This document shows positions 21,187 to 43,404 of a DNA stretch of 57,389 bases, piece after piece. Below the pieces are notes generated by a model. The model was not told the origin of the DNA, made no database searches, and saw only the letters and a program-made list of their open reading frames with translations. How positions within the stretch are numbered: the stretch's first letter is position 1; each line of letters begins with the position of its first letter. The DNA is from a virus. The position numbers and the translations under genes are program-made. The stretch lies in IMG/VR virus record IMGVR_UViG_3300021091_000085, positions 1-57,389 of that record, one strand, 5' to 3'.

Positions 21187-22206
21187 TTATATCTTTATCT
21201 TACTTAATACTAACTTAGCTTTTAACCCAGCGTAACTGTTTTCAATAACAAACGCTGGGTTAACTTTGTCTATTTTAACTTTACAACACATTTCATTAAA
21301 ATCTTTAAATTTTTTACCGATATTTTCTGGCCAGACAAACACTGTTTGATTATTCTCTATAAGTTTATACGTTTTCTTTAATCCTGCTTCATCTTGCCAT
21401 TGTGAATCCAGTACCCACACGTGTTTATGTAGTGGGTATTTCTTAATTTGGTGTGATTGTAAGTCTGTAAATGTAGAATAACTATCTTCTTGAATGCCAG
21501 CTACCGCCACTCCATTAGGTACAAAAAAGCTATCTATAGGTCCTTCAAATATAAAAATAAAATCAGTATCATTATTGATATTATCAATATTGAACAATGA
21601 CTTCTCACCGTTTCTTTTAGATAGATACTTAGGTTTAAACTTTTTATCGTAATCTAACACACTTCTACTTTGATAATATATAGGTTTACCATTTTCGTAA
21701 AATGGTATAATTAAACGGTTCTTATGGGTACCATCTTTTAAGCTTGTATATAACGTCTTAGGTCTATTTACTGCTGTGTTCAACCGTCTTTCAATAATAT
21801 AATTGTGTATCGTGTTAATTATTTTATTATCTTTATAGAATTGTAACTGTTGTTCATCTAGTAAGTTAATACAATCATCGGGTAAATCATTAGTTATAGG
21901 TTGCTTCTCTTCTTTTTCAGTTACAATTTTAATACTATCATACTGTTGTAAATCATTTAGTATGCTATTGTAAGAATCTCCTGATACTTGCGTAATCCAT
22001 TTTAATGGGTTACCACTCCACCCACAATTATGACAAAATATTAAATTTTTCTTTACTACATAGAATAACCGTCTTTTTAACCCCCAGCTTTTACCCTCTT
22101 TGCATATCGGGCACCCTCCCTGGTAGGTACGTGTAAGACGGTTATACTTTGGTTTGTTTGCGTATTGATAAAATTTCTGAATTACATATTCTTCTGGAAT
22201 ATACAT
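21187..22206 (-). CDS. 61: DNA primase gp61-like
   Basis: About 339 aa from the ATG at 22,206, one base past the stop of the preceding gene; an upstream ATG at 22,227 would overlap it. An N-terminal zinc-binding domain is visible (C32PIC35 and C58HNC61). A TOPRIM-type core follows: FIFEGPIDSF provides the catalytic Glu and VWVLDSQWQDE the acidic pair. It synthesises RNA primers with the gp41 helicase, encoded about 7 kb away. T4 gp61 is 342 aa. Confidence 0.88.
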   Translation of the reverse strand: MYIPEEYVIQKFYQYANKPKYNRLTRTYQGGCPICKEGKSWGLKRRLFYVVKKNLIFCHNCGWSGNPLKWITQVSGDSYNSILNDLQQYDSIKIVTEKEEKQPITNDLPDDCINLLDEQQLQFYKDNKIINTIHNYIIERRLNTAVNRPKTLYTSLKDGTHKNRLIIPFYENGKPIYYQSRSVLDYDKKFKPKYLSKRNGEKSLFNIDNINNDTDFIFIFEGPIDSFFVPNGVAVAGIQEDSYSTFTDLQSHQIKKYPLHKHVWVLDSQWQDEAGLKKTYKLIENNQTVFVWPENIGKKFKDFNEMCCKVKIDKVNPAFVIENSYAGLKAKLVLSKIKI

Positions 22207-22207
22207 T

Positions 22208-22405
22208 TTATTTACCAGCGGGCTCAATACTAACTATACCTTTTCGTATAAATGAACCACTGTTAGGATCAATCCAATGTGCTTCAGTAACTTTTTGATT
22301 GTTACGCACATATGTTTTCAACTGTGGTTTTACCGGTGCACCACTGATTGGGCTGGTTATAACAGTAGGTCTAACAAATTGTTGATTGCTCATATTGTTA
22401 ATCAT
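22208..22405 (-). CDS. small hypothetical protein, 61-65 aa
   Basis: Proline-rich and basic N-terminal half (FVRPTVITSPISGAPVKP), then KVTEAHWIDPNSGSFIRKG. The start may be the ATG at 22,405 or 22,393. It sits between RNase H and primase with minimal spacing, so it is co-expressed with replication genes. No known domain. It could be a small replication accessory, by position only. Confidence 0.6.
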   Translation of the reverse strand: MINNMSNQQFVRPTVITSPISGAPVKPQLKTYVRNNQKVTEAHWIDPNSGSFIRKGIVSIEPAGK

Positions 22406-22413
22406 ACATGTAT

Positions 22414-23316
22414 TTAATATAATCCTAATTGTTGAACAAGTTTATTCAATTTATTTGCTTCAAAAAACGTTTTATACCATTTATGTTTATTTAAAATGAT
22501 ACGGTTTAACGACAAATCGTTACAATATCTAACGAATCTATTGTAATCCCTTGTATCAACTATGTTATCCAATTGTTTCTCATAGTGTTTATATTCATCT
22601 TCAATAGTATAACCTACATGTAAATCCATTATTCGCATATTTCTCTCAAAAATAACACGTTGCTCATCGGTGAGACAACTAATATTGTTTGTATCAACTA
22701 TTTCAACAGCAAGTTTAAGACCTTTCTTTGGGCCTACCTTATATAAACCCTGTATATTATCACTATTATCACCAATCAAAGCTTTATAAGTTAGAAAATA
22801 TCTTTTATCGATACCTTTATTGGTTAATGTAAAGTTATTTTTAGTAATAAGGTCTTTTTTAATTGGGGAATATACATCAATATTATCATCTACCAACTGT
22901 AAAAGATCTTTATCAACACTTACAATTGTATAATGATTGTTTTTCTTTGTGGTGAGCCATGATATAACATCATCTGCCTCGAGTTTATATGGGTAAAAAT
23001 TACAAGCACCGATCGATTCTAACATACCCACTAACTGTTCATCATATTGATGTGCTTCTAGAGCTAAAGATTTATCCCTATTAGCTTTATATTGATGTAT
23101 TAATGCTTCTTTTCTAAAATTTGTAGAATTTTCCAATAATTTTTTATCCCATACCGTGTAAACCTTATCAGGTTTGAATTGATTGACGTAAGAATAAACA
23201 GAATTTAAAAATAAATGAACTAAAATAGGGCCATCGCTATCATTACCTATTGTATTTTTTGAAACCCAAAACGTTCTATACAGTAAATTATTGCAATCCA
23301 AAATCAGTATTTTCAT
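22414..23316 (-). CDS. rnh: RNase H / 5'-3' flap exonuclease
   Basis: About 300 aa from the ATG at 23,316 (T4 Rnh is 305 aa). FEN-family acids are visible: LILDCNNLLYRTF at the N terminus, YPYKLEADDVISW, IVSVDKDLLQLV and a later LIGDNSDNIQG. The GPKKGLKLA segment is the helix-hairpin-helix that grips the template. It removes RNA primers from lagging-strand fragments. It overlaps the upstream gene by about 29 bases. Confidence 0.92.
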   Translation of the reverse strand: MKILILDCNNLLYRTFWVSKNTIGNDSDGPILVHLFLNSVYSYVNQFKPDKVYTVWDKKLLENSTNFRKEALIHQYKANRDKSLALEAHQYDEQLVGMLESIGACNFYPYKLEADDVISWLTTKKNNHYTIVSVDKDLLQLVDDNIDVYSPIKKDLITKNNFTLTNKGIDKRYFLTYKALIGDNSDNIQGLYKVGPKKGLKLAVEIVDTNNISCLTDEQRVIFERNMRIMDLHVGYTIEDEYKHYEKQLDNIVDTRDYNRFVRYCNDLSLNRIILNKHKWYKTFFEANKLNKLVQQLGLY

Positions 23317-23623
23317 CCTCTTTAATAATATTTGTATTTTTAGGATGGTCAATATTAAACTTGTATTGTTTCAAACAAATTTCAAGTATTTTACCAGATA
23401 AAACAGCATTTGTTTTACGTAATAAATTATTTTCCACCCCTTCTTTAACGTCTTTCGATGGTATGTAAAAATTTTCTAGGTTATTTGTAGATAAAAAATT
23501 AAACGTATCTGTTTCAGTATTTTGTTCTATAAACACCAATAGATGACCTATATACGTACCTTTATGTACTGCGTATATATCACCTTTTTTAAATTTATTT
23601 TTTTTATTTCTAAAAAAATTCAT
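23288..23623 (-). CDS. hypothetical protein, 111 aa
   Basis: Very basic N terminus (FFRNKKNKFKKGDIYAVHKG) followed by beta segments (IGHLLVFIEQN, TFNFLSTNNLENFYIPS). The KKGDIYAV...G pattern resembles small SH3-like beta barrels in general but is not diagnostic. It lies directly upstream of RNase H and overlaps it. Function unknown. Confidence 0.65.
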   Translation of the reverse strand: MNFFRNKKNKFKKGDIYAVHKGTYIGHLLVFIEQNTETDTFNFLSTNNLENFYIPSKDVKEGVENNLLRKTNAVLSGKILEICLKQYKFNIDHPKNTNIIKEDENTDFGLQ

Positions 23624-23636
23624 TTATTAGATGAAT

Positions 23637-24611
23637 TTAAGAAGATATTTCTACAGCACTTGTAGGTATGGTTTCGGTTGTAGATACAATTTGAGGGGGT
23701 TCAATTACAGCATTACCCGTGGTTAAGATTTGCTTATAAAGCATTAATATGTTTTTAATAGATGTTTCGGTTTTAGGTAAACCCAATCCAAGCGAAGTTA
23801 TAAGGTCGGTGTTAAGAACCGTGTTGCTTCTATTAGCTTTAAATTTAAACTTTGCAGGATCTGAAATAAAATTCCACTTCTTATCGAAAACACTAGGTAT
23901 ATTTACTTCCTTCATTAACTCCACAATTTCATTTGCTTTAATTGGTTGCGGGTTAACTACATTATAAGGCCCAAACGGTAAAGGTGATTGATTATCTAAT
24001 AGTAAAAAGTTATATACAAAATTATAGAAATCATCAACACATGTTACACTGTTCAATACATCTAAAGTCTTTTCATACTTTAAAAGTTTATTAAATAAAT
24101 TCTTTTCAACGTCAATAAACGTAAAAGGTAACCTAATTCTAAAGATATGACACTTATGACCAAAGGTTAATTCAGCTAAATGCTTTGTTTTTGAATAAAA
24201 ACTGCTATCGTTATTGTATAACCCAAAATTTGGTTCATCGGTTTCTGTATATTCCTTATCATACCCATCATATACACAACCCGACCCAATGTATATACAA
24301 CTACTACCATATTGATTTACAACATCAATAATATTATTCGGTATAGTAACATTATTTCGATATGTTAGTTGCTTATTTTCTGGTAATTCGCATGAATCAA
24401 TGTTGGGTGTACCGGTATACCCAAATGCAATTATAACTTTATCAAACTGTTGAGTGTTAGCATGGTAATTTAAAAACATGCTAAGCATTTCCGGATTTGT
24501 ATAATCTAATATATCTACACTTACGTTATGTACCTCAAAGTTTGGAGCTTTAGCAAGAAAAAAACTTAAACGCTCACCAATAAAACCTTTACCGAGTACC
24601 AGTATTTTCAT
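23637..24611 (-). CDS. NAD-dependent epimerase/reductase, RmlD-like
   Basis: About 324 aa from the ATG at 24,611 (MKILVLGKGFIG). The Rossmann GxGFxG motif lies at the N terminus and the catalytic Y-x-x-x-K is in SSFYSKTKHLAE. It is an extended SDR enzyme closest in pattern to dTDP-4-dehydrorhamnose reductase. The Ser/Thr-Pro-rich tail (TETIPTSAVEISS) is an addition. It likely prepares a nucleotide sugar for the phage glycosyltransferases at 38.6 and 41.6 kb or for host surface remodelling. Its place inside the replication block is unusual for T4. Confidence 0.82.
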   Translation of the reverse strand: MKILVLGKGFIGERLSFFLAKAPNFEVHNVSVDILDYTNPEMLSMFLNYHANTQQFDKVIIAFGYTGTPNIDSCELPENKQLTYRNNVTIPNNIIDVVNQYGSSCIYIGSGCVYDGYDKEYTETDEPNFGLYNNDSSFYSKTKHLAELTFGHKCHIFRIRLPFTFIDVEKNLFNKLLKYEKTLDVLNSVTCVDDFYNFVYNFLLLDNQSPLPFGPYNVVNPQPIKANEIVELMKEVNIPSVFDKKWNFISDPAKFKFKANRSNTVLNTDLITSLGLGLPKTETSIKNILMLYKQILTTGNAVIEPPQIVSTTETIPTSAVEISS

Positions 24612-24939: not shown

Positions 24940-25670
24940 GTCATTAGTGCCGATACAATATACTTCAATTTATATTGATCTTCACTTATTTCAAACAATA
25001 TAACCCCAAGTTTAGGGTTAATATTAACAGTTAGCTTTTCAAATTTAACCGATGAAATTATTTTTATTGTTTCGAATATAATTGGTATATCATTTATCGG
25101 TTCTTTAGGTTGGAAGTCATCATTTAACACTGTTGAAAATGTATCCAATAAACTATTTGCTTTGTCTGCAATTTCACCGTAAACTTTACCTTCAACAAAT
25201 GAAATATATAACTTGCTTGCTGTATTTGCAAAACTCGACCCTTTAATTAACTCAATAATTTTATTATGGTCAACGGTAAATTGAATATTAAATTCAAGTT
25301 TTGCTATTTTTTCAGCACTTAATGAAGGTCCATTGATAATTCCATTTTCCAAAAGATGGTATGTGAATCTTATTTTACCATCATTGTAACCTAAACTATT
25401 ACCATTATATTTTAATTTGACTTCTTCACAATCTAGAAGTGTTATTATTCTTTCTAACCTACGAAGATCGGGGCAATTTAATACAACAGGTTTATCGGTA
25501 TTAATTTCAATATTACTTTGCGCAAATAAAATTACCGATGCATCTTGTGTGGCATTTATTGATGTTACTTTATTTTCTTGTATCTTAAGATTACCTGAGT
25601 CTGATATATTACATACAGGTTTTAAGAATTTCGTGAGAAATTCCCCTTTATTTTTGATAACCAATTCCAT
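24936..25670 (-). CDS. 45: sliding clamp gp45
   Basis: 244 aa (T4 gp45 is 228 aa). The PCNA-like two-domain repeat is visible: ATQDASVILFAQSNIEIN and LNCPDLRRLERIITLLDCE in the first half, and FTVDHNKIIELIKGSSFANTASKLYIS in the second. The trimeric ring holds gp43 on DNA. In T4-like phages it also activates late transcription through gp55 and a co-activator. The clamp loader genes (44 and 62) are not in this window. Confidence 0.9.
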   Translation of the reverse strand: MELVIKNKGEFLTKFLKPVCNISDSGNLKIQENKVTSINATQDASVILFAQSNIEINTDKPVVLNCPDLRRLERIITLLDCEEVKLKYNGNSLGYNDGKIRFTYHLLENGIINGPSLSAEKIAKLEFNIQFTVDHNKIIELIKGSSFANTASKLYISFVEGKVYGEIADKANSLLDTFSTVLNDDFQPKEPINDIPIIFETIKIISSVKFEKLTVNINPKLGVILFEISEDQYKLKYIVSALMT

Positions 25671-25679
25671 ATTTCTATG

Positions 25680-26141
25680 TTAGACTTTTTTTTCTTTCTT
25701 GTCCAACTTTTTTTTTACAATATGTTCGGAAAGACCATTAACTTTTTCATTTAATTTATCTAAACGTTCAATAATTGTATTGAGTTTATAATATATATTT
25801 TGTGCTGTAGGTGAATTATCGAAATTAAACATCATTTGATTAGAATCATTCACCGGTGTTTGTGGTGTATTAACCGGTGAAGGTTGTTCTACTACAGGGT
25901 ATTGAACTGGTTGCGATCGAGGTAATTGTGGTTGTACTTGTTGAGCAGGTACAACCCTAATATGCTCTTTAACTAAATTAGCTTTTGCTTTTTCAATAAT
26001 ATCACGTGGTTGGATATCAGTTTTAATAAATTTACTATCACCAACCATCATACCATTAACGTTGTTTTTAATAAACCCCGCTGTGCTTGCAGTTAATGCT
26101 GCAATCAATTCTAAATCTTCTTTTACATTATTTGCAGACAT
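25680..26141 (-). CDS. hypothetical protein between gp32 and gp45
   Basis: 153 aa. A helical N terminus (ELIAALTASTAGFIKNNVNG) is followed by a Pro/Gln-rich linker (about residues 60-105), a short MMFNFD patch and a C-terminal coiled coil with a Lys-rich end (KLDKKEKKV). The disordered linker between two helical ends suggests a bridging protein. Its place next to the clamp raises the possibility of a clamp-binding factor such as a gp33-like late co-activator. No gp33 signature is clear, so function stays unknown. Confidence 0.65.
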   Translation of the reverse strand: MSANNVKEDLELIAALTASTAGFIKNNVNGMMVGDSKFIKTDIQPRDIIEKAKANLVKEHIRVVPAQQVQPQLPRSQPVQYPVVEQPSPVNTPQTPVNDSNQMMFNFDNSPTAQNIYYKLNTIIERLDKLNEKVNGLSEHIVKKKLDKKEKKV

Positions 26142-26171
26142 AAAAAAATGGGGAAGGTGTACACCTTCCCC
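26142..26171 (-). terminator. rho-independent terminator after gp32
   Basis: Perfect palindrome GGGGAAGGTG-TA-CACCTTCCCC at 26,150-26,171, followed on the minus strand by A and T7. It ends the gp32 transcript just before the next gene, like the terminator after gene 32 in T4. Confidence 0.9.
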
Positions 26172-26188
26172 TGTATTTATATAACTAT

Positions 26189-27055
26189 TTAACTATTCAA
26201 CTGCTCAAGAATCTTGCTTATATCATCATCTTCCTCTTGAGTATTGAGAGATGTTTCAGCTTCTGCAACTGCTTTACTAACTGGCTTCTGAGCTACAGGT
26301 GTAGCAGCTTCAATAATATTTACCTTCACATCCTCCTTTGCAGCAGGTGTGGCTGTGCAATGATAATGCTCATTAAGAACCTTGGTGAGCTCGTCGTAAC
26401 TCTTAACAGTGAACACCCTTTCAAGATCAATAGTGTCATTGTAAATCTCCTGAATCTTATTTTCGGTAAGATTCTCGATTGCTTTGGGCATTGTGAATTT
26501 AGAAGATGAATACGAAGGATATTCACCTTGCTTATCCACCTTAACCTTGAAATCACAACCCTTACCGCTAAGGTCAAAGATTCTCGAACCAAGTGAATCG
26601 CTATCCTCCCCCTCAATTGCATCCATAATAATCTTATGCAATTGACGACCGAACTTAAGAAGTTTTACCTGACCATTATTTTCAGGGTTCTTAGGATCGT
26701 TGATGACATAAACATTTACAAGCCAATTCTCTTTGCGAAGAATTTTGCTTGCCTTGTCTTTTTCTTCTTGCGAACCAGTCTTGGTAATTTTATATCTATA
26801 CTCATTGATCGGGTCACGATCACCCCACGTCTGAGGACTTACCAAGTTAATATATTGCCCAGTTGAATAAGACGTCCAACCAAAAGTAAAGTAATGGAAA
26901 AACGTTTTGCTTGGATCTTTAATGTTAGGTAACAATCTTACAGTGTAGGTATTACCTACTTCTGTCTTCATGAACTTACCCACACTGTTGTTTTCGTTCT
27001 TGACTAATGCTTGTTTGATGCTATCAAACATCGATGCTGTTATTATGTTATTCAT
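26189..27055 (-). CDS. 32: single-stranded DNA-binding protein gp32
   Basis: 288 aa (T4 301 aa). Core OB-fold segments are recognisable: VRLLPNIKDPSKTFFHYFTFGW, ENWLVNVYVINDPKNPENNGQ and VKLLKFGRQLHKII. The C terminus is the acidic tail that contacts replication partners (EEDDDISKILEQL). The T4 zinc finger (H-x-C-x2-C) is absent, as in several marine relatives. It coats replication-fork and recombination ssDNA. The long A/U-rich leader and terminator make it a separate transcription unit with probable autoregulation. Confidence 0.9.
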   Translation of the reverse strand: MNNIITASMFDSIKQALVKNENNSVGKFMKTEVGNTYTVRLLPNIKDPSKTFFHYFTFGWTSYSTGQYINLVSPQTWGDRDPINEYRYKITKTGSQEEKDKASKILRKENWLVNVYVINDPKNPENNGQVKLLKFGRQLHKIIMDAIEGEDSDSLGSRIFDLSGKGCDFKVKVDKQGEYPSYSSSKFTMPKAIENLTENKIQEIYNDTIDLERVFTVKSYDELTKVLNEHYHCTATPAAKEDVKVNIIEAATPVAQKPVSKAVAEAETSLNTQEEDDDISKILEQLNS

Positions 27056-28110: not shown

Positions 28111-28978
28111 ACACCGATAACAACTTGGTGTACTCTAAGAACTTTTCTGTTATGGTACCTCCGCAAGCATTATCGTGACCTTCTCCTTTCTCACCCGTTA
28201 CTTCTTCAACGGTAGTTGAAAGTGATACATTAGATGTTTTTTTACGTCTAAAATATATACGCTTTAAACGAGTGTTGACTATACACGCTATATCGCATTG
28301 CGTTTTTTTAAGAACATGGTCAGCGAGTTCGTTAATACTGAAATCACCAAACATGGATGCTATTGAATATCTATCGTTTTTATAATAGTATATTGGATTT
28401 GTCTGTATATGTTCTTGTAATTTTTTAAGTTGTAATAAAATGATATTTCTTTGCTGAACGTTAAACAATTTGAAACCGTTTTCAAAATCCACCACAAACT
28501 GTTTAACTCTATCCCCTTGATATTGCCAGTAAAGAAAATTTAAAAGTAATGATTCTTGATTTTTAAGGGTGTAACTATCATAGTCGTCAACTAATGCAAT
28601 TAAATGTTGTTGTTCGGGTGTTAAACTAGTATTTTTAAGTAATGTTTGCTTAACTAAATCAGCATTACTTGTATGTGTTTTAACAATTTTAACTGCTTTT
28701 TTATAATTTGGTTTATGTGATTGATGATGATCAATCACAATAACATTAGGGTAATCAACAAGATCTATATTTTTTGAAACATCAATATCTAATATAAAAA
28801 TTTTCTTAAATGAATTTATATCATTTTTAGATAACCATGCACTAAAATCGGTACTAAAATTTTTGACTGTTGTTGCTTTATATGGTAGAGGAGTGGACCC
28901 AAGTAGCCATTTAACACATAAATAGCTACAAGCGCCGTCGAGATCACAATCTGTGAAAACGAAATACTTATCCATCAT
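28091..28978 (-). CDS. DHH-family phosphoesterase
   Basis: 295 aa. Metal-binding motifs of the DHH superfamily are clear: TDCDLDGACS (motif I), FILDIDV (motif II), VIDHHQSH (motif III) and ALVDDYDS (motif IV). The DHHA1-type end has GHDNACGG. The family includes RecJ exonuclease and NrnA/GdpP nucleases. The short length favours an oligonucleotide or nanoRNA phosphatase, or a small RecJ-like exonuclease. Placed between gp32-linked genes and the gp41 helicase, it probably degrades short ssDNA or RNA. Confidence 0.85.
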   Translation of the reverse strand: MMDKYFVFTDCDLDGACSYLCVKWLLGSTPLPYKATTVKNFSTDFSAWLSKNDINSFKKIFILDIDVSKNIDLVDYPNVIVIDHHQSHKPNYKKAVKIVKTHTSNADLVKQTLLKNTSLTPEQQHLIALVDDYDSYTLKNQESLLLNFLYWQYQGDRVKQFVVDFENGFKLFNVQQRNIILLQLKKLQEHIQTNPIYYYKNDRYSIASMFGDFSINELADHVLKKTQCDIACIVNTRLKRIYFRRKKTSNVSLSTTVEEVTGEKGEGHDNACGGTITEKFLEYTKLLSVYEKDKY

Positions 28979-29005
28979 AAATAATTAAATACGTTTTTAT
29001 TGATA

Positions 29006-30340
29006 TCAACTATTATCACCTAACAAGTCAAGAGCGTTAATAGCTGTAGCTGCTACTGATTCTAATTGTGGTATATCTTCCTCGGTAATAGTTAATGTAG
29101 GGTAATTAATTTGTAATTGAGTACAACCGGTGTTAGATCCAAATCGGTTTTTCATCATACCTAATCGTATTATGTTTAGAGATCTATCGTCTTCTTCTTG
29201 CCAAATACTCATCATTGCATCAACCGCTTGTGCCATTGCTAAACTCTCACCGATAGTTTCAACACCTGGGTTTGAAACATTATAACCTGTACGATTTAAC
29301 TGAGTAGCAGATATAAACGGCGCATTAAACATATAAGTAAATGCACGTACCTGTTCGGTTATATATTTACCACGTTCGTTGCTATTTGAACCTATCGGTG
29401 AATGTAGTAAGTTAAGATAATCTAAAACAACCGCATCAAAAGCAATACCTTGCGATTGTAACTTTTTAAGAAAAGCTGATAATTGTATAGGTGTTATAGT
29501 ACTAGGTGGAAATTCCTTAATAAGTATTTTACCACCTGGGTATTTTTCGAAAAACAATTCAACGTTACCTCTCAACAAACCTGTTTCATGGCGTAGATTA
29601 GATAACGGTATACTGGTAATGCTTGATGCAAGTCTTCGTGCATAAATCATTTCACTCATTTCAAGTGAAATGATAATTACTGTTTTACCTTGTTTGGCTA
29701 TGTTTGTTGCTACGTTACCTAGAAAAATAGATTTACCAACATTAGTTTCACCTGCAAACAAATATAAAGCTCTACCTGAAGCCAACCATCCCCCGTCTAA
29801 TCTTTCATCTAACCATTTCCAACCCGTTGAAATCACAGGTTGTATGGTTTCAAGATCATTTATTACTGTACCAATGTCTTTGAAGAGATCAATACCTAAA
29901 GTCTGGGTTAGATTTATACTGCAACTCTCCTCAAATTTTTCTAATATCTCTGCTGTATTTACCGTGTTATTAGTTACCTTATCCACCACATCCATCATTG
30001 TATGGAATACAGCCTTTTCCTTTAAAAATTGCTCAGTACTTGCGTACAAGTCATCTTCGTTAAAGTTTTTATCGACTTTTTGAATTTTATTAAGTGCATT
30101 TTTTAAACTATCTTTATATTCTGATGTGTTACAATAGTTTAAAATTTCAGTTTTTGAAGGTAACGTATTTCTTTTTTCAAAAAAGATTTTTATTATGGTG
30201 AAAACGTTTTTAAAATCTTTATCTTTGAAGTAATGAGGTCTAATATAGTCTACAATTGAAGCAAGGTATTTTTGATCGGTAAATGATTTATAAAATATGG
30301 TTGTTTCAAAAATATCTAAATCTAACGATAAATTTTTCAT
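29006..30340 (-). CDS. 41: replicative helicase gp41 (DnaB-like)
   Basis: 444 aa (T4 475 aa). The N-terminal helical domain contains KDKDFKNVFTIIKIFFEKR, and the RecA-like motor has Walker A AGETNVGKS, Walker B-type VVLDYLNLL and the DnaB motif ISATQLNR. It is hexameric, unwinds ahead of the fork 5' to 3' and recruits primase gp61. It overlaps the glutamine amidotransferase start by 4 bases, so the two are translated together. No intein is present. Confidence 0.93.
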   Translation of the reverse strand: MKNLSLDLDIFETTIFYKSFTDQKYLASIVDYIRPHYFKDKDFKNVFTIIKIFFEKRNTLPSKTEILNYCNTSEYKDSLKNALNKIQKVDKNFNEDDLYASTEQFLKEKAVFHTMMDVVDKVTNNTVNTAEILEKFEESCSINLTQTLGIDLFKDIGTVINDLETIQPVISTGWKWLDERLDGGWLASGRALYLFAGETNVGKSIFLGNVATNIAKQGKTVIIISLEMSEMIYARRLASSITSIPLSNLRHETGLLRGNVELFFEKYPGGKILIKEFPPSTITPIQLSAFLKKLQSQGIAFDAVVLDYLNLLHSPIGSNSNERGKYITEQVRAFTYMFNAPFISATQLNRTGYNVSNPGVETIGESLAMAQAVDAMMSIWQEEDDRSLNIIRLGMMKNRFGSNTGCTQLQINYPTLTITEEDIPQLESVAATAINALDLLGDNS

Positions 30341-31008
30341 GATCCGAGAGTAAAGAAATGAGAATCAGCGGCAAACGTCCCTACATTATAAAAGGTATTA
30401 TTGTTTAAATCAAGTTTAAACAAAGTTCTTTCTGGTACCGGTACCATGAGCATGTACTTTACAGAAGAAAACCAATTTTCTTCGTGAAATAAAGTGCTAC
30501 TTAACCTACAAATATATAAATCATTATTTTCATCAATAATCCATAAACTAAATGTACCTTTTAATTTATTACAAGTTTCAATTATAGCTTCTTGCGTTGT
30601 TTTGCCTAAGCTTTTATAGTAATTTATAATATACGGTATAATAGAACTATCTACATTACTATCTATATTATTGCAATTAAATTCACGCTTCAAATCTTCA
30701 TAATTGGTTAATATACCGTTATGTGCTACATGTATATTATTATAGCTAAAAGGATGGATTGTATTTTCATTAATATTCCTATCTGAACCTGTAGGAGCTT
30801 GTATATGACCGAGGTAATATCTGGTATTTTGACCATATTTTTCTAAAATTCTAAGTGTTTGTTCAGAATCTGTAGTTCTATGTATTTCCCATCTATTTGT
30901 TTCACTAGATAACACAGCTATCCCAAACGAAACATTACCTCTAAATTTATTTGTTAAATAAAGTCTAACAAAATGTGATAAATTATACGATCCAAATATT
31001 GCGCACAT
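30337..31008 (-). CDS. stand-alone class II glutamine amidotransferase domain
   Basis: 223 aa. Met is followed directly by the catalytic Cys2 (MCAIFG). GHIQAPTG (67-74), HPF (85-87), AHNG (95-98) and the acid at SNVD120 are the glutamine-binding and oxyanion positions of the PurF/GlmS family. It has no synthase domain, so it releases ammonia to another enzyme. In other phages a glutamine amidotransferase is fused to QueC (Gat-QueC) for 7-deazaguanine DNA modification; queC lies 1.1 kb upstream here. It could equally be a YafJ-type domain of unknown role. Confidence 0.85.
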   Translation of the reverse strand: MCAIFGSYNLSHFVRLYLTNKFRGNVSFGIAVLSSETNRWEIHRTTDSEQTLRILEKYGQNTRYYLGHIQAPTGSDRNINENTIHPFSYNNIHVAHNGILTNYEDLKREFNCNNIDSNVDSSIIPYIINYYKSLGKTTQEAIIETCNKLKGTFSLWIIDENNDLYICRLSSTLFHEENWFSSVKYMLMVPVPERTLFKLDLNNNTFYNVGTFAADSHFFTLGS

Positions 31009-31049
31009 ACTTTTATTATAGTTATTTAACCATTAAATTACTACAAAAC

Positions 31050-31057
31050 AATAAATA
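31050..31057 (+). promoter_or_regulatory. late-type AATAAATA box
   Basis: AATAAATA five bases before the ATG at 31,063. It lies in the 54-base spacer between the divergent amidotransferase and the acidic plus-strand gene. Confidence 0.55.
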
Positions 31058-31062
31058 ATTTT

Positions 31063-32124
31063 ATGCTTCATTCCGATGATAATTTAATTTTTGAAAGTTA
31101 TTTTCATGCTATTAATAATGCTATTAATGAAGCTAGGGGTAGAAAGAAACAATATGGTGAACGTGTCAAACAGATGATAACCGACCCTAAAACAGGGGAA
31201 CAACGTTTAGAATCATATTATGAAATGATGCAAAGACTTAAACGTGCAGCAATAAATGCAGCTTCTGAATCAGAAAACGAACCAATTTCAGATGAACCAA
31301 CAATAGATGAGCCAACAACAGAAGAACCATATGTAGCAAGTGGTAGTGTTGAAGATCAATTGAGACAAAAAATTGCAGATTTACAAAATCAATTAACTGG
31401 TCAACAGGAACCCGATGAAGATGCTGAGCCTGATGAAGATGTTGATATAGATATTGGAAGTAAACCTATAGAGGATGTAGGAGCGTTTAACTTTAACACT
31501 ACGTTAACACTTGGTGACAAGTATGAACAAGCTCCGCTAGATGCGATGACGCAAGATATCTTGCAGTATGTAGAGGATACACCTGCCACCGGTAAAGAAA
31601 TTGTCAATTTTTTAATAGATAAAGGTGTTAATGAAGTTTATGCAAAAAATAAAGTTGCAAGTTTAGCATTATTAGATATATTAAAGTTATATTTTTCAGG
31701 TGAAGAAACCCCAAAAGAAATACCCGGTGAAATTAGTATACCAGATGAACAAAGCGGTGAAATGGAATATGACCCTGAACTAACTAAAGATATTAGCTTA
31801 TCTAACGACGACGAAAGTGAAGATGATATACCTAAAGCACCTAAAGAGTTAAAATTAGGCGGTAAAGAACCAAAAGAACAACCTGACGAAGATTTAGAAT
31901 CTACATTAAAAATGTTCTTACCACTTAAAAAATTCTTACCTTCAGGTAAGAGTGAAGAAGAAAAACGTAAAGAATTTGTCAATAAAATGCTTGAACTCAG
32001 ACGTCAACGTGCAGAAGAAAAACAAAAGTACGAAGCTGAAGAAAAAGCTAGAGAAAAAGAAATTGAAGAGACTGATACTGAAATATCTGATGAAGACGAA
32101 CCAGTATCACCCGACGAACTTTAA
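31063..32124 (+). CDS. acidic late virion-type protein with head-targeting-like N terminus
   Basis: 353 aa. The N terminus includes IFESYFHAINNAINEARGRK, resembling an extended T4 capsid-targeting sequence with a gp21-like site (I-N-E followed by A). After that come low-complexity acidic repeats (DEPTIDEPTTEEP, DEDAEPDEDVDIDI), a small helical domain near residues 155-215 and a charged coiled-coil end. It is isolated on the plus strand inside a minus-strand block, with its own late box. Likely scaffold-like or packaged in the head; no T4 homologue recognised. Confidence 0.7.
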   Translation: MLHSDDNLIFESYFHAINNAINEARGRKKQYGERVKQMITDPKTGEQRLESYYEMMQRLKRAAINAASESENEPISDEPTIDEPTTEEPYVASGSVEDQLRQKIADLQNQLTGQQEPDEDAEPDEDVDIDIGSKPIEDVGAFNFNTTLTLGDKYEQAPLDAMTQDILQYVEDTPATGKEIVNFLIDKGVNEVYAKNKVASLALLDILKLYFSGEETPKEIPGEISIPDEQSGEMEYDPELTKDISLSNDDESEDDIPKAPKELKLGGKEPKEQPDEDLESTLKMFLPLKKFLPSGKSEEEKRKEFVNKMLELRRQRAEEKQKYEAEEKAREKEIEETDTEISDEDEPVSPDEL

Positions 32125-32861
32125 TCTATACGTTTACAGTTATATTTTTCCCATATTAGGGATAAATCTTGCTTATAAGCAAGTGGGTCTATATAACCTG
32201 CATCGATAAACCCTTTAATACGCAAACTACTACTTACACTTTCAGCATCTGAAACCATTTCACCGCTATAACAAGTGTATGTATTACCGAAATTAACACC
32301 TAACCGCACACCTTCAAGTACAATGTCTTTTTTACTCATTAATATAAGAGGTGTATCTACCGTTATTCGTATTGTTCTATTTAATGAAAGTAGGTTATTT
32401 AAATTATTTCTAAATTCGCTACTTGAATCCCAATAACCTGCAAGTGTATCAGCTTGAGCAGACCCATGCCATATTGATGTTATGTTATTTGCTTCAGCTA
32501 ATGAGGCTAAAATACTTAAAAACATCAAGTTGCGGTTTGGTACGTAACTTAATGGTTGAGCCTCTCCCATTACATTTTTAACATTAGGTGTAGCAATTTT
32601 ATTATTAGTTAACGAACTCGTTGGAGCAATTTCTCTAATAAATCTCACATCAATTGTTTTAAATTGTAACGTTTGGTTAGGTTTCAATTTTGACCTAACG
32701 TGATTAATTTGCATTTCAGCGCAAGTCTTTTCTATAATATGTCTTTGACCATAGTCAAAAAACACTGCATGTATATTATCAAAATATTCTAACGTTTTGT
32801 GAAGTAGTACAGAAGAGTCCATACCACCACTTACACCTAATACAACACCATTGTTGGTCAT
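32121..32861 (-). CDS. queC: QueC-like 7-deazaguanine synthase lacking the zinc cysteines
   Basis: 246 aa. The PP-loop SGGMDSS (11-17), PNRNLMFL (108-115) and HGSAQAD identify the QueC family, which converts 7-carboxy-7-deazaguanine through the amide to the nitrile preQ0 using ATP and ammonia. The family's C-terminal zinc site (Cys then CGxCxSCxLR) keeps only Cys197. The other three positions are D205, S208 and S211 before LRIKGF. It lies 30 bases downstream of the carbamoyltransferase. It may stop at the amide or use ammonia from the nearby amidotransferase. The loss of zinc ligands is seen directly; its effect is inferred. Confidence 0.87.
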   Translation of the reverse strand: MTNNGVVLGVSGGMDSSVLLHKTLEYFDNIHAVFFDYGQRHIIEKTCAEMQINHVRSKLKPNQTLQFKTIDVRFIREIAPTSSLTNNKIATPNVKNVMGEAQPLSYVPNRNLMFLSILASLAEANNITSIWHGSAQADTLAGYWDSSSEFRNNLNNLLSLNRTIRITVDTPLILMSKKDIVLEGVRLGVNFGNTYTCYSGEMVSDAESVSSSLRIKGFIDAGYIDPLAYKQDLSLIWEKYNCKRID

Positions 32862-32891
32862 ATTTTTATTATAAAAATTCTCAAATATAAA

Positions 32892-34463
32892 TCAAGACTT
32901 ATGTACAAGAATATCTTCCAATATTAAAAAGTCCATTTGCGTCTTATCTAAAACAACGAGTGCATCTCGGTATGTGTTTAATATTGGTTTGCCTGCAACA
33001 TTAAATGATGTATTCAACAGCACCCCGTGACCTACAAGCTTTTTTAACTCTGTTAAAACATCATACAACCATTCATTTTGTTCACGGGTAATTGTTTGAA
33101 CTCTTGCAGTACCATCAACGTGGGTGATAGATGATAATTTATCTCTCCATTCAGGTTTAACTTTAGGACAAAATAACATATGCCTACACTCACCTTCCCA
33201 TTCAAAATACGTCGAAACTTCTTCAAGTCTTACAACAGGTGCAAAAGGTCTATACCATTCTCTATTTTTTACTTTTGCATTTAATATATCCTTCATTTGA
33301 GGAAACGAAGGGTTACACATAATACTTCTATGACCTAATGCTCTAGGTCCGTGTTCACAACCACCTTGTACTACACCCACTATTTTACCATCAGCAAATA
33401 AAGAAGCTGCTTTTGCAGGTGTTATTTTAAAACTATACCGTGATTCGTATATATCAGAAAGTGTATTTCTATCAAAAACTTCAGGTCCCCCATAAGTTAC
33501 ATCTACAGGGTCCTTAGGTTTCATGTAATCAAGTAAAAACCCTAACGCAATACCGCAATCATTACTATTGGGTGCTACAAATATTTTACGGTTAGGGTAT
33601 TTTTCCTTAACCTTTTGATTTACTAAAATATTCAAAGCGCATCCACCTGTTAATATAATTGGATAATTACATCTAATGAAATAAGGTGACGCTATTTCAA
33701 AGAAAATATCTTCAAAAACTTTTTGCGACGTAGCCGCTAAATTATATGCAATCTCACCTGTGAGTCTCAAACCCTCGTTGAACGGTACACCTATCTCAGC
33801 ACTTAATATTTTTACTTTTTCTATATAAGTTTCACCACATGGAGCTGACATATAGAATTTGCGCATAGGTTTTTCCCATGCAGGTATTGATTGACCATAA
33901 TTACATAGACCCATTATCTTACCACCATACACTAAATTACCATCACCTATCCATTCTTGCTTTATCGGTTCAAGATAATGAGCTATTATCATGTACGGGA
34001 ACCCCATATCAACATGGTGACTTCCTATATGTGATAAACCGTCTTTTCTATTTGCTGTAAATACGTTAAAAAACCCATCATCACCACCACCATCATATGA
34101 AATAATAACAGCCTCATCAAAATTAGACTGGTAATACGATGAGGCTGCATGGGCACGGTGGTGCCAAGTTCTTACTAATTTTGTAGCTGGTATAAAATCC
34201 TTGTAGCTTGTTACTATATCATTGTGTGTAACTTCAGAGTTACTATGAACCATTACATCTACAGGAAACTCAATACCAAGATTATTTTGTAAATATAAAA
34301 GAGCCGTCTTTAAACCCAACTCTCTATTCCTAGCAACTTTATATTGTGCTAGACCTAAATTTTTACCGTTAAATAATCTTTCAAACTCAACAACAGTATA
34401 TTTACCGTTCTGTTCAACTGCAATACCACCGTTATGTGAGCCGTAAAATCCAATATTAGCCAT
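32892..34463 (-). CDS. NodU/CmcH-type carbamoyltransferase
   Basis: 523 aa. The N-terminal ASKHA/Kae1-like domain has the metal-binding motif WHHRAHAASSYY and ISYDGGGDDG. The C-terminal domain has the signature HGPRALGHRSIMCNP and NREWYRPFAPVV. It uses carbamoyl phosphate (or carbamoyl-AMP) to carbamoylate a hydroxyl group. There is no separate YrdC domain. Known substrates in the family are antibiotics and Nod-factor sugars. Beside queC, a modified base or nucleoside is a possible target; a cell-surface sugar is the alternative. Confidence 0.92.
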   Translation of the reverse strand: MANIGFYGSHNGGIAVEQNGKYTVVEFERLFNGKNLGLAQYKVARNRELGLKTALLYLQNNLGIEFPVDVMVHSNSEVTHNDIVTSYKDFIPATKLVRTWHHRAHAASSYYQSNFDEAVIISYDGGGDDGFFNVFTANRKDGLSHIGSHHVDMGFPYMIIAHYLEPIKQEWIGDGNLVYGGKIMGLCNYGQSIPAWEKPMRKFYMSAPCGETYIEKVKILSAEIGVPFNEGLRLTGEIAYNLAATSQKVFEDIFFEIASPYFIRCNYPIILTGGCALNILVNQKVKEKYPNRKIFVAPNSNDCGIALGFLLDYMKPKDPVDVTYGGPEVFDRNTLSDIYESRYSFKITPAKAASLFADGKIVGVVQGGCEHGPRALGHRSIMCNPSFPQMKDILNAKVKNREWYRPFAPVVRLEEVSTYFEWEGECRHMLFCPKVKPEWRDKLSSITHVDGTARVQTITREQNEWLYDVLTELKKLVGHGVLLNTSFNVAGKPILNTYRDALVVLDKTQMDFLILEDILVHKS

Positions 34464-34467
34464 GTAC

Positions 34468-35568
34468 TTATTTACTTACACCATACCTATAAGCCACTGC
34501 TAATTTTTTATCGAGTTCAGGTATAATGTAGTTCTCCCAAAAATCGATATCTTTAGACCAATTTTTGTAATACCCAATCTTATCACCTTGTTTATACTTA
34601 CCATCTTCAGATGTTATTCCAATCTGAAATGTGGGCCCATTGGATATAAGAACACCGTGATTTACAGCCATATCCCTCAAACCACTGTATTTATCTAAAC
34701 CTGTCTTAAAATTAAGATAAATTTCAGCCTGTAAATACTGAGGTATAAAACGATTTTTTACAGTTAAAAACCGTAAAGTTTTACCAGAGTAATTACGTGC
34801 TTCTGTAAGCATTTCATCATTCTCGTTATTTTCATCTTGCTTTTCATTAGAAGCAGCTATTTGACATAGAACACTTGCAAGATATGTAGGACCACTACCA
34901 CCAGCCTGGTTCTTTACCAAAGATGGGTACATTGCAGTAGGATCACCATAAACATGGTTACTAAACAATATAGTGGTGCCTGCAGCAGCAGCCTTGTAGG
35001 TAATAAGGCGCATCATAGCTTTCAGCGTCTTAGCACGAAGACCCATATCAGCAGCAGATTTATCCTTTTCAACATCATCAATTTCTTTTTGAGATGCAAG
35101 GTTACCAAGTGAGTCAACACTTACAATAAACCTACCTTGAAGACCTTTTTCAACCACACTATCTAAAAATGTAGATAGTTGATTCCTGCATTGCTCAACA
35201 GTATAGACTGGAACATATTTGGTCTTTTCAGGGTTAACCCCAACATTGATAGCACTTTCTTTATCGACAGCGAACTCAGTATCAAAAATAACTGGTATCA
35301 AACCGAGTTTATTTTGTGCAATACCAAGAATTTTATTAATAATAAAGGTTTTACCAACACCAGATTCTCCAGAAAACCCTACGATACGACCTTTAGGTAC
35401 ACCACCATTGCGTATTTTACCACTAACAATGGCATTTAGAGCGTAGCAACCAGTATCATACCAGGTATCTACGTTTGATAAAGCACTTTCACTAAGAAAA
35501 GTAGCTTCAGGGTTGAGTTTATCAAGACGTTCAAAAACGTCGTTAATATCTATTTCTTTAGTTCCCAT
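34468..35568 (-). CDS. uvsX: UvsX recombinase (RecA family)
   Basis: 366 aa (T4 391 aa). Walker A GESGVGKT, Walker B FIVSVDSLGNL and the loop region NQAGGSGPTYLAS match UvsX/RecA. It forms filaments on ssDNA for strand exchange and recombination-dependent replication, helped by UvsY (48.1 kb) and gp32. It lies 4 bases downstream of the previous gene in the minus-strand operon gp43, small ORF, uvsX, carbamoyltransferase, queC. Confidence 0.95.
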   Translation of the reverse strand: MGTKEIDINDVFERLDKLNPEATFLSESALSNVDTWYDTGCYALNAIVSGKIRNGGVPKGRIVGFSGESGVGKTFIINKILGIAQNKLGLIPVIFDTEFAVDKESAINVGVNPEKTKYVPVYTVEQCRNQLSTFLDSVVEKGLQGRFIVSVDSLGNLASQKEIDDVEKDKSAADMGLRAKTLKAMMRLITYKAAAAGTTILFSNHVYGDPTAMYPSLVKNQAGGSGPTYLASVLCQIAASNEKQDENNENDEMLTEARNYSGKTLRFLTVKNRFIPQYLQAEIYLNFKTGLDKYSGLRDMAVNHGVLISNGPTFQIGITSEDGKYKQGDKIGYYKNWSKDIDFWENYIIPELDKKLAVAYRYGVSK

Positions 35569-38578: not shown

Positions 38579-39799
38579 TCAAGTTTTACTTAAAAATTTT
38601 CGTTCAATTGACCCGTATGGGTATTTATACATCTCAACAAATTTCATTATATTTCCCTCATTTTCTAAAAAACGGCTTTCTGCAATTTTGCGAGCATTTG
38701 TAGCCTGTCTCTTATAATTGCCTTCTTTTAAATTTTCGTCAATTTGATCTATCATTTCATCACCAGTTTTAAATCTTATAGGTGCGTTTTTATATGTTAC
38801 CATATCTTGACAAGCTACAGGTATACCGTAACATGCACCTTCAAGATATTTTAGATCACTCTTTGACTTATTAAATGTATTATCAGCTAATGGAGCTACC
38901 ATCATTTGTACGTTGAGTTTATCAATAAAATACGGGTAATCCATTAATTTACACCAAGGGTGAAATTCAATTTCACCTGACTTAATATACGGTATTAAAG
39001 TTTGTGATGCAGCACCGATAAATATCCACTTAAATTTTTTCCTTGTTTTAATAATTGCTTCATTAACATGGTAAAAATCATCATGCTGCTTTACTCTATT
39101 ATCAACGTCAAAATGTGCAGCTGAACCATTATATAAAATACGTGGCTTGTTTTTATTATCGTTTAGATTCTTTAACAACTTTTCTTTGTTATAAAAATTA
39201 CCCATCCAAAATCTAGGTACATAGTTAGGTATTACAGTAACGTTTTGATTAGCTATTTTAGATTTATAATAATCTTTCATGAAATCACATGTTACTGTAA
39301 TTTCGTCGCATAGATTCATTATTTCTTCACAACTTATTCTAACATCATCTGAAGCGAACGCTACTTTAAATCTATTATAATCAGGAATATCTTCTCTAAA
39401 TGTTATATCATCAATTTCATATACGATTTTGAATTTATTTCTCTTTTGTATATCTTTTAAAAATTTAATAAACTCTAACTGTTGCGGTGAAGCTTGACGT
39501 TGTATACGGATTGTAGTCATTTGACTATAAAATCGTTCATCACGTAACATAAAAATACCATTAAAAGATAATAAATCACCTCTGAGATTCATTATCATTT
39601 CAGGCCAAATTAATCTCCAACAACCACAACCACCGTGATCAGCTAAAAAATTAAAAACTTTAACAGTGTCTTGAACAGATTGTTGAATAGGTATTAAACG
39701 CTCACTGTGAGGTATAACACCAGGCGTGGGTTGCTGCTGTGCAAATACAGGTTTAAAAGGTGCAGCAAATGGTGATGTACCCGGGAGCGATGTAAACAT
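38579..39799 (-). CDS. glycosyltransferase, GT-B (group 1) type
   Basis: 406 aa. The C-terminal half has the GT4-like pattern RILYNGSAAHFD, EIEFHPW, then KSDLKYLEGACYGIP, where the E-x7-E-like acid contacts the nucleotide sugar. The N-terminal Pro-rich leader (about 30 residues) is unusual. The gene lies between gp46 and gp43. It might glucosylate DNA bases, as T4 Agt/Bgt do, or modify host or virion surface sugars. The pattern favours a polysaccharide-type transferase. Confidence 0.8.
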   Translation of the reverse strand: MFTSLPGTSPFAAPFKPVFAQQQPTPGVIPHSERLIPIQQSVQDTVKVFNFLADHGGCGCWRLIWPEMIMNLRGDLLSFNGIFMLRDERFYSQMTTIRIQRQASPQQLEFIKFLKDIQKRNKFKIVYEIDDITFREDIPDYNRFKVAFASDDVRISCEEIMNLCDEITVTCDFMKDYYKSKIANQNVTVIPNYVPRFWMGNFYNKEKLLKNLNDNKNKPRILYNGSAAHFDVDNRVKQHDDFYHVNEAIIKTRKKFKWIFIGAASQTLIPYIKSGEIEFHPWCKLMDYPYFIDKLNVQMMVAPLADNTFNKSKSDLKYLEGACYGIPVACQDMVTYKNAPIRFKTGDEMIDQIDENLKEGNYKRQATNARKIAESRFLENEGNIMKFVEMYKYPYGSIERKFLSKT

Positions 39800-41629: not shown

Positions 41630-42361
41630 TTATACCGTATTATTTTTAGCAAATCTAGTAAAAAGTTTTTGATATACCTGTGATGCTTCAGTCATTGTTA
41701 ACAGAGGTAAATCAACAGGGGTGTAATTATACTTGAGTTTGAACAGTTTAAGCCCTCTTAACATTATATCTTCTTCAAACGGGGTGGTTGTAGGTTGCTC
41801 AATTACATTGAACTTATTAATGTTAGGTGATGTAAAGTAACTCACAGGTGTACTTAAACCCTTATTATATAACCTATAATAATAGTCTAATGCTTCGAAT
41901 GAATCCTGATATTTTTCGTCAAAATAACCTATTTCCTTTATACACTTCAAATTTAAATATACAAAATGTTTCGAAAAACGATCTGTTACTTTTACCGAAC
42001 AATCTTTATAATCTAAAATAACTCGTTCGGCATCTACATTGAATAAAATGTGTATACCGGTATTTTCAAAGCATTTTACATACTCATTTACAAAATTTGT
42101 ATCTAATAATTCAACATTATCACGTATAATAAAAATATGCTCGCAATTATTTTTACTAAGTTCTCTTAAACCATCATTTACACAAGCTGAAAAATACTTT
42201 TTATCAGCTCTATAAATTTTTGTATCGCATTTAAAGTTATTAGTGTTTAAATCATTAGTTACAACGGTATATGAATTATTTACCGTTGAAAGTAGATCTA
42301 CTAATTTAGTGCAATTTTGTTTATTACTATCGTGATAAATTAAAAAACCGGTTTTATTCAT
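41630..42361 (-). CDS. GT-A-type glycosyltransferase-like protein
   Basis: 243 aa from the ATG at 42,361, which overlaps the gp47 stop (ATGA). The fold hints are GFLIYHDSNKQNCTKLVDLL, EHIFIIRDNVELL (a DxD-like position replaced by RDN) and EIGYFDEKYQDSFEALDYYYRL, the last typical of GT2-like proteins where a D/E pair follows the acceptor loop. It is probably a small glycosyltransferase. Its insertion between gp47 and gp46 is notable because these genes are adjacent or nearly so in T4. The missing clear DxD makes activity uncertain. Confidence 0.6.
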   Translation of the reverse strand: MNKTGFLIYHDSNKQNCTKLVDLLSTVNNSYTVVTNDLNTNNFKCDTKIYRADKKYFSACVNDGLRELSKNNCEHIFIIRDNVELLDTNFVNEYVKCFENTGIHILFNVDAERVILDYKDCSVKVTDRFSKHFVYLNLKCIKEIGYFDEKYQDSFEALDYYYRLYNKGLSTPVSYFTSPNINKFNVIEQPTTTPFEEDIMLRGLKLFKLKYNYTPVDLPLLTMTEASQVYQKLFTRFAKNNTV

Positions 42362-43404
42362 TTTAAACATTCCTTATATAAATTATTAACATATTTACGC
42401 ACTTCAGGTTTATTATCTATCTCCATTAAATTAATAAACTCATCAATCATTGTAGGTATATCTATACTTTGAAGATGAGTATCCTGGTTTGCGTTAATAT
42501 CAATTTTATCAATATCTAGTTTATAATCTACACTAAACCCTAATGGTTTAAGTTGTGATAATTTAGTAGATATTTTATTAATGTTATCAGGTGGTAATTT
42601 TTTATCTACACATAAACGTACAATATTGTTTGTAACAATGTTTTGTATTGTCTTGTCTATATTGTCACCTTGTATCTCACTTAATTTAACAAGATAATGT
42701 CTAGGTGAAACAGTATTCTCTATTGTTTCATATGAATTATCCACAAAATTGTAAATATAAACATATTTCTTTCTTTCCGCATCACCAAAATCCATTTGAA
42801 ATGTATTGCCTACATAGATAATTTTACCATTATCAAATACACGCTCCTGATTTAAATGGAAATGACCAGTAAATGTTATTCTTGCATTGTTAAGTAATTG
42901 ATTATAGTCTTCACCATGGTCGCATATTTTGAAATTATTAATTTGGAAATTAGCTAATTCAAAATGACCAAATACTATATCACTTTCAGGTATATTTGTT
43001 ACAGAACAACCCCAAGGTGCAAACGATACTCTTCTACCGTGTATTGTTGCTGAATATAACTCATCTAAAACAGTTACATTCGATTTACCTTTAAATACAG
43101 ATAACGAATTTATTGATGCGTCATGCTTTAAGTAACAGTCATGATTACCTGGTATCATGACTATATTAAACCCATCTAATATGCTTAATATTTTTGATGA
43201 CACGTCTAATGTAGATACATTAATTTCATCACGATGATGAAACCAATCTCCGCAAAACATAATATCTTCTATACTATTTTGATTTAATATATCTTTCAAC
43301 CACGTAGCATAATTTATAGCAATTGTATGCCAGGATGGATTATTTTGATGAGCTCCAAGATGTAAATCAGAAATTATAGCAATCCGTTTATTTTTAAAAA
43401 TCAT
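42358..43404 (-). CDS. 47: recombination nuclease gp47 (SbcD/Mre11-like)
   Basis: 348 aa (T4 339 aa). All calcineurin-like phosphoesterase motifs are present: ISDLHLGAH, FCGDWFHHRDE, IPGNHDCYL, FGHFELAN and FTGHFHLNQ, giving the two-metal site. It works with gp46 in end resection and host DNA breakdown. It begins the minus-strand run gp47, glycosyltransferase, gp46, glycosyltransferase, gp43. Confidence 0.95.
   Translation of the reverse strand: MIFKNKRIAIISDLHLGAHQNNPSWHTIAINYATWLKDILNQNSIEDIMFCGDWFHHRDEINVSTLDVSSKILSILDGFNIVMIPGNHDCYLKHDASINSLSVFKGKSNVTVLDELYSATIHGRRVSFAPWGCSVTNIPESDIVFGHFELANFQINNFKICDHGEDYNQLLNNARITFTGHFHLNQERVFDNGKIIYVGNTFQMDFGDAERKKYVYIYNFVDNSYETIENTVSPRHYLVKLSEIQGDNIDKTIQNIVTNNIVRLCVDKKLPPDNINKISTKLSQLKPLGFSVDYKLDIDKIDINANQDTHLQSIDIPTMIDEFINLMEIDNKPEVRKYVNNLYKECLK

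Follow-up and report, generated by a model that had tools for sequence, protein, structure and literature searches.

What does a phage gain from a QueC-family PP-loop ATPase, a free class II glutamine amidotransferase (Gat) and a NodU/TobZ-type carbamoyltransferase that are encoded together between two of its replication genes? This question is raised by IMG/VR virus record IMGVR_UViG_3300021091_000085, a fragment of a larger genome whose entire 57,389 bases form the stretch analyzed here (the window). We consider it probable that the locus is part of a phage 7-deazaguanine DNA-modification pathway, in which Gat would feed ammonia to QueC, the product would be dPreQ1 (the deoxynucleoside of preQ1, 7-aminomethyl-7-deazaguanine), and the carbamoyltransferase would be a later insertion. 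An overlapping contig of 79,813 bases (G001) shares 52.6 kb with the window at 99.98% identity and adds 27 kb to the left of it, so that about 84 kb of the window phage can be read. These carry T4-type marks: UvsX, a family B polymerase, gp41, gp46/47, a gp32-like single-stranded DNA-binding protein, a late sigma factor and the large terminase. The polymerase is only 31–32% identical to the best-listed GenBank polymerases. Judged by these genes, the window phage is a large uncultured phage that is distantly related to T4.

All open reading frames (ORFs) of the block are intact and, with one exception, lie on the minus strand. The block is bounded upstream by the gene for the UvsX recombinase (34468–35568) and downstream by that for a gp41-type replicative helicase (29006–30340), both in conserved order and with identities assigned from sequence. 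The carbamoyltransferase gene (32892–34463; 523 amino acids; PF16861, 8.4e-62; PF02543, 7e-17; phrog_1601, 4e-116) begins with an ATG 4 bases downstream of the stop codon of uvsX and lies 30 bases before queC (32121–32861; 246 amino acids; PF06508, 3.8e-44). Gat (30337–31008; 223 amino acids) is of the Ntn type, with Pfam matches that both exceed the curated cut-offs (PF13537, 5.7e-8; PF13522, 1.3e-7), and its gene overlaps that of the helicase by 4 bases. Between queC and gat, the plus strand encodes an acidic protein of 353 amino acids (31063–32124). A gene for a FolE2-type GTP cyclohydrolase (PF02649, 6e-72) follows at 55742–56791 on the minus strand. The original prediction had placed Gat, QueC, the carbamoyltransferase, the plus-strand ORF and FolE2 at these positions and in these families, and the ORFs, Pfam and PHROG agree.

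A scan of IMG/VR with the carbamoyltransferase as query returned 37 loci. In the clade of the window (clade 1; 14 tree rows, window included), the order UvsX–carbamoyltransferase–QueC–(opposite-strand ORF)–Gat–gp41 is kept, as far as each contig extends. Clade 1 proteins are 56–75% (carbamoyltransferase), 46–76% (QueC) and 31–46% (Gat) identical to those of the window, and their carbamoyltransferases form a single clade with full support (SH-aLRT, Shimodaira–Hasegawa-like approximate likelihood ratio test, 100). For all three proteins, nonsynonymous divergence (dN) is well below synonymous divergence (dS), which is itself near saturation, and they are therefore under selection. Because the order persists across contigs with such diverged carbamoyltransferases, and dN is well below dS, the block is not a product of chance.

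A probable 7-deazaguanine pathway in the phage and its relatives

Membership in a 7-deazaguanine pathway, as originally predicted, is supported by genes of the same phage and of its relatives. Besides QueC, Gat and FolE2, which are recognized by Pfam in the window, a full-length, two-domain QueF is encoded on the overlapping contig G001 (59517–60458; PF14819, 7e-29; PF14489, 8e-22; PDB 3bp1, 7e-41), and it shows both the Cys/Asp and the ESKS motif. Beyond its FolE2 gene, the window continues for just 0.6 kb. In a close relative (G004), FolE2 (25181–26227; 82% identical) is followed within 5 kb by QueD (28346–29017) and QueE (29978–30751), and both proteins also occur in G014, G033 and G034. 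The latter two contigs, of 200.8 and 217.4 kb, were reached by a scan with the QueE of G014; they encode FolE, QueD, QueE, QueC-Gat between UvsX and gp41, QueF, and a DpdA-like protein.

DpdA is present in four relatives (G033, G034, G043 and G049), some of them near-complete. The predicted structure of their DpdA-like protein (mean predicted local distance difference test score 87.5) best matches the tRNA-guanine transglycosylase (TGT) 2pot (4e-10); the top 43 PDB matches are TGTs and the 44th is DpdA 7ui4 (1e-6), so that, as modeled, the protein has a TGT-like fold. A scan with this protein returned 80 loci, 73 of which have QueF close by. A GMP reductase-like gene also belongs to the window phage (G001 54842–55801, or L008:14842-15801; best PDB match 1ypf, 3e-80). 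It recurs with deazaguanine genes; in G033, G035 and G036, queC and gat flank it.

Put together, these genes suggest the following route. By homology, FolE2 would make the first intermediate from GTP, from which QueD and QueE, seen in the close relative just past FolE2, would generate 7-carboxy-7-deazaguanine (CDG) that QueC would then adenylate. The free Gat most likely hydrolyzes glutamine and passes the ammonia to QueC; the conserved pairing and the existence of fused Gat-QueC proteins suggest that the two together act as a split, glutamine-dependent amide/nitrile synthase. QueF of the same phage would reduce the resulting preQ0 (7-cyano-7-deazaguanine) to preQ1. Lastly, a DpdA-type transglycosylase, seen only in the relatives, would exchange guanine in replicated DNA, yielding dPreQ1 and protection from restriction.

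The split Gat/QueC pair and the missing zinc site

The presence of Gat and QueC as separate proteins, pointed out in the original prediction, is not new. In the window the two genes are indeed not fused, being parted by the opposite-strand ORF, but a separate class II Gat beside QueC is also encoded by Vibrio phages nt-1, KVP40, 2.275.O and 6E35.1a. The pair is thus known in existing data, though its Gat is mostly annotated as "hypothetical": this applies to 6E35.1a (L252:4211-4816), whose protein begins MCGLFAAKTKK and reads as Gat, to nt-1 (L240:3711-4319) and to KVP40 (L010:6711-7319). The queC and gat genes are contiguous in these phages, overlapping by 1 base in KVP40, nt-1 and 6E35.1a and lying 32 bases apart in 2.275.O, where one region encodes QueF, a putative vitamin-uptake-type transporter, QueC, the class II Gat, FolE and QueD. 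Overall, the Vibrio phage clusters comprise QueD, FolE, DpdA2, QueF, QueC and Gat. The window phage shares with them the neighboring pair and a C-terminal QueC extension, and shares QueF with KVP40, 2.275.O and 6E35.1a. It differs from them in the opposite-strand gene between queC and gat, the inserted carbamoyltransferase, FolE2 in place of FolE, and the loss of the QueC zinc cysteines, which the Vibrio phages keep; the DpdA of its relatives belongs to another group than that of the Vibrio phages.

The window Gat carries the hallmark residues of its class. Its N-terminal MC, with the Cys2 nucleophile, and its HNG motif, with the Asn-Gly of the oxyanion hole, are kept in all aligned relatives and in GlmS; Cys2, HNG(I/V) and the glutamine-pocket Asp are conserved across the clade and in KVP40 and 2.275.O. 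In 6E35.1a, 15% of deoxyguanosine is replaced by a species of 295 Da that would fit dPreQ1 (PMC12028318). The DNA of nt-1 has traces of dPreQ0, dADG (the deoxynucleosides of preQ0 and of ADG, the amide) and dG+ (deoxyarchaeosine), which the authors of the nt-1 study ascribed to an ArcS homolog (PMC6884629). A Gat that supplies ammonia to QueC would be the simplest reading that fits both data sets. As in the window, a class II Gat works with a QueC domain in phage 9g (PMC6884629), although there the two are fused and the product is dG+, whereas in the window phage they are separate and QueF points to dPreQ1. Escherichia phage matches annotated as "glutamine amidotransferase" turned out to be a 676-amino-acid protein of an amidoligase cluster, a different system, and were set aside.

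QueC itself has an intact catalytic core and an altered zinc site. Compared with the canonical motifs (PF06508 cluster 1; PMC13329287), it keeps SGGxDS (as SGGMDS), YxQxHxxE (as YGQRHIIE), VPxRN (as VPNRN) and the Tyr of TCYxG; YPDC reads YWDS, with Tyr and Asp kept, and zinc-bearing relatives also have YWDG or YWDT at this place. Of the zinc motif C(x)8CxxCxxC, whose cysteines are listed as a hallmark of QueC (PMC13329287), only the first Cys is kept and the other three are replaced. This is not a sequencing error, because other contigs of the window phage encode a QueC with 100% identity. The cysteines are retained in relatives G033–G036, lost throughout clade 1, and separately lost in clade 2 (a second group of carbamoyltransferase-bearing phages) and in Flavobacterium phage immuto. 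A first alignment fitted a tie between zinc loss and the carbamoyltransferase, which is ruled out by G043, G049 and immuto: the two contigs have a zinc-less QueC behind UvsX together with DpdA and QueF and encode no carbamoyltransferase, and immuto combines a zinc-less QueC with the lack of a carbamoyltransferase. Zinc loss is therefore a lineage trait of its own that is compatible with DNA modification. The idea that a zinc-less QueC halts at the amide was dropped, since phage CP220, which we take to be a dADG phage, retains all zinc cysteines. A pattern scan for cellular homologs of the window QueC found none.

Several observations weigh against a complete dPreQ1 pathway in the window phage. 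QueD, QueE and DpdA are not found in the window, as the original prediction had stated, nor on the overlapping contig. For DpdA, all six frames of these 84 kb were searched with KVP40 DpdA2 and an 85-sequence profile; PF01702 likewise gave no match, but this model also fails on KVP40 and is uninformative. Both sites that DpdA occupies in relatives, between ribonucleotide reductase and GMP reductase and beside QueF, are covered here, and DpdA lies in neither. Moreover, the loss of the zinc cysteines makes preQ0 synthesis by this QueC less than certain, Gat could, by analogy with 9g, make G+ (archaeosine) instead, and dPreQ1 is a prediction for a clade known from its genes alone. The DpdA of the window phage has either moved or lies in the unseen part of the genome, or its lineage uses another route. 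At the first of the two sites, between the genes for ribonucleotide reductase and GMP reductase, the window encodes a TauD-type 2-oxoglutarate dioxygenase (5e-19) and an HNH endonuclease (1156–2527).

Two other roles for the deazaguanine genes have to be set against this evidence. They could raise the host's supply of queuosine or preQ1 for tRNA and leave phage DNA unmodified, which would agree with the missing DpdA, even beside QueF, and with preQ1, the QueF product, being a normal tRNA precursor. We regard this as unlikely, given that DpdA lies next to QueF in relatives that have QueC-Gat in this position, that zinc-less QueC occurs on DpdA-bearing contigs, and that the deazaguanine genes of the window lie in a replication operon. 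It seems somewhat less likely still that QueC without its zinc site makes no preQ0 and ligates CDG to another amine or to a protein, like Cap9 and QatC. The QueC fold has been repurposed repeatedly (PMC13329287), and the repeated loss of the three cysteines in clade 1, clade 2 and immuto would suit such a change; on the other side, the catalytic motifs are retained, QatC and Cap9 themselves retain a zinc motif (PMC13329287), and the Gat pairing and QueF agree with preQ0 synthesis.

The carbamoyltransferase and its acceptor

The carbamoyltransferase has both the N- and the C-terminal domain and the full set of NodU/TobZ motifs for metal binding and carbamoyl transfer (HHRAHA, DGGGDDG, EHGPRALG, REWYRPFAP and LLNTSFN). 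It shares these active-site motifs, and a whole-length phrog_1601 match, with the NodU/TobZ O-carbamoyltransferases and the Nol-like proteins of phages, and departs from them in its neighborhood of replication genes and QueC instead of sugar genes, a setting found only in clade 1. Full-pathway relatives have no carbamoyltransferase at this place (a remote copy, 29% identical, is encoded elsewhere in G033), which marks the enzyme as a lineage add-on. In clade 2 (e.g. G015, G017, G018, G019, G022 and G029), a carbamoyltransferase occurs with QueD, QueE, FolE, the zinc-less QueC and a DpdA-like protein, and QueF was not found. In the two members whose region was read (G015 and G022), its gene lies in a run of glycosyltransferase genes just before the DNA polymerase gene. 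Homologs in isolated phages (S-SCSM1, Bellamy, HTVC008M and XacN1) are found among nucleotide-sugar epimerases, UDP-glucose dehydrogenase or glycosyltransferases, and XacN1, whose homolog is close, lacks QueC.

The original prediction suggested that the enzyme may carbamoylate a deazaguanine or a further product, an idea that draws on gene association and that the comparisons do not support. A sugar appears from the gene neighborhoods to be the more likely acceptor, because the isolate homologs are mostly among sugar genes, XacN1 has no QueC, and no dCMP-hydroxymethylase partner was found. Two observations that the prediction itself had named as telling against it were thus made in part: the kin of the carbamoyltransferase cluster with sugar enzymes, and the available part of the phage lacks DpdA. 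We give about even weight to the enzyme acting on a sugar hydroxyl, be it of a phage or host glycan or of glycosylated phage DNA, with its place beside QueC due to chance insertion into the replication operon; this is compatible with the deazaguanine pathway proposed above. Glycosyltransferase neighbors are also seen in the unmodified contigs of the MetaGPA study (PMC8670742). The characterized relatives TobZ and GdmN are O-carbamoyltransferases, in clade 2 the enzyme is flanked by glycosyltransferases, an FkbM-like methyltransferase and the DNA polymerase, with one copy continuing into an HtrL-like part, and two glycosyltransferases are encoded in the same gene run of the window. Against a sugar acceptor, no sugar gene touches the carbamoyltransferase in clade 1, where it keeps its place between uvsX and queC in every member seen, clade 2 genomes carry deazaguanine genes too, and P-SSM2 has a distant homolog without adjoining sugar genes.

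That the enzyme modifies the 7-deazaguanine itself, most simply by converting the preQ1 aminomethyl group to give an undescribed ureidomethyl-deazaguanine in phage DNA, we consider improbable; if it does so, the product would represent a new type of DNA hypermodification. QueC is its kept neighbor in clade 1, clade 2 pairs it with QueD, QueE, QueC, FolE and DpdA, QueF predicts an amine acceptor, and a carbamoyltransferase of the same family acts on a phage DNA base, 5-hydroxymethylcytosine (5hmC; PMC8670742). Yet full-pathway relatives do without the enzyme here, the acceptor would have to differ in clade 2, where QueF was not found, and XacN1, despite its close homolog, lacks QueC. The chemistry of the family is mostly O-carbamoylation. 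Far less probable is the formation of 5-carbamoyloxymethylcytosine as by the MetaGPA enzyme, which is likewise a phage gene product with carbamoyltransferase domains, belongs to the same broad family and acts on 5hmC DNA (PMC8670742). Unlike in that system, no dCMP hydroxymethylase partner was found for the window phage: the thymidylate-synthase family PF00303 is absent from the window, G001, the clade 1 contigs searched and seven relatives, including two of >200 kb, the phage's own genome being incomplete. What XacN1 and G019 do encode are thymidylate synthases with an Asn-type motif, as in ordinary ThyA. A role in 5hmC modification is unlikely because no such partner was found.

A possible source of a sugar acceptor is a GT-B glycosyltransferase encoded directly downstream of the DNA polymerase (38579–39799, minus strand) and kept with or without the carbamoyltransferase. 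Its identity as a T4-like DNA beta-glucosyltransferase was not confirmed, the best PDB matches being HepE/PimB-type GT-B enzymes. A second glycosyltransferase-like protein is encoded between gp46 and gp47 (41630–42370, minus strand). In the structural region, a large protein (L009:13662-16154) has FkbM-methyltransferase-like, HtrL-like and glycosyltransferase-like parts, and in the clade 2 phage G015 the carbamoyltransferase (21187–24459) runs on into a similar HtrL-like part, the domains of both being assigned by eye. The acidic ORF between queC and gat, kept in the carbamoyltransferase-bearing clade and without a match in Pfam or PHROG, is probably outside the deazaguanine pathway. At its N terminus, LIFESYFHAINNA, it is similar to several other short proteins of the phage group (e.g. 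L009:3850-4464), and such N termini may be propeptides of internal head proteins. A/T-rich sequence (ATAATAAAA) precedes the starts of queC and gat, and an obvious Shine-Dalgarno motif is lacking there, which may be a clue to the host group. A TubZ-like GTPase of the Tubulin/FtsZ family is encoded near FolE2 (54079–55188; PF00091, 7e-18).

Implications for phage deazaguanine systems

The dPreQ1 pathway that we consider probable for this locus would place deazaguanine modification in a large uncultured phage group distantly related to T4. The zinc-less QueC of this group offers a testable case for the purpose of the zinc site. Among the phages in which the split Gat/QueC pair recurs is 6E35.1a, in which dPreQ1 was measured; this recurrence suggests that Gat can be an ammonia source for QueC, beyond its role in G+ synthesis. 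The Gat genes so far annotated as hypothetical bear on the origin of dG+ and dPreQ1 in 6E35.1a, nt-1 and KVP40.

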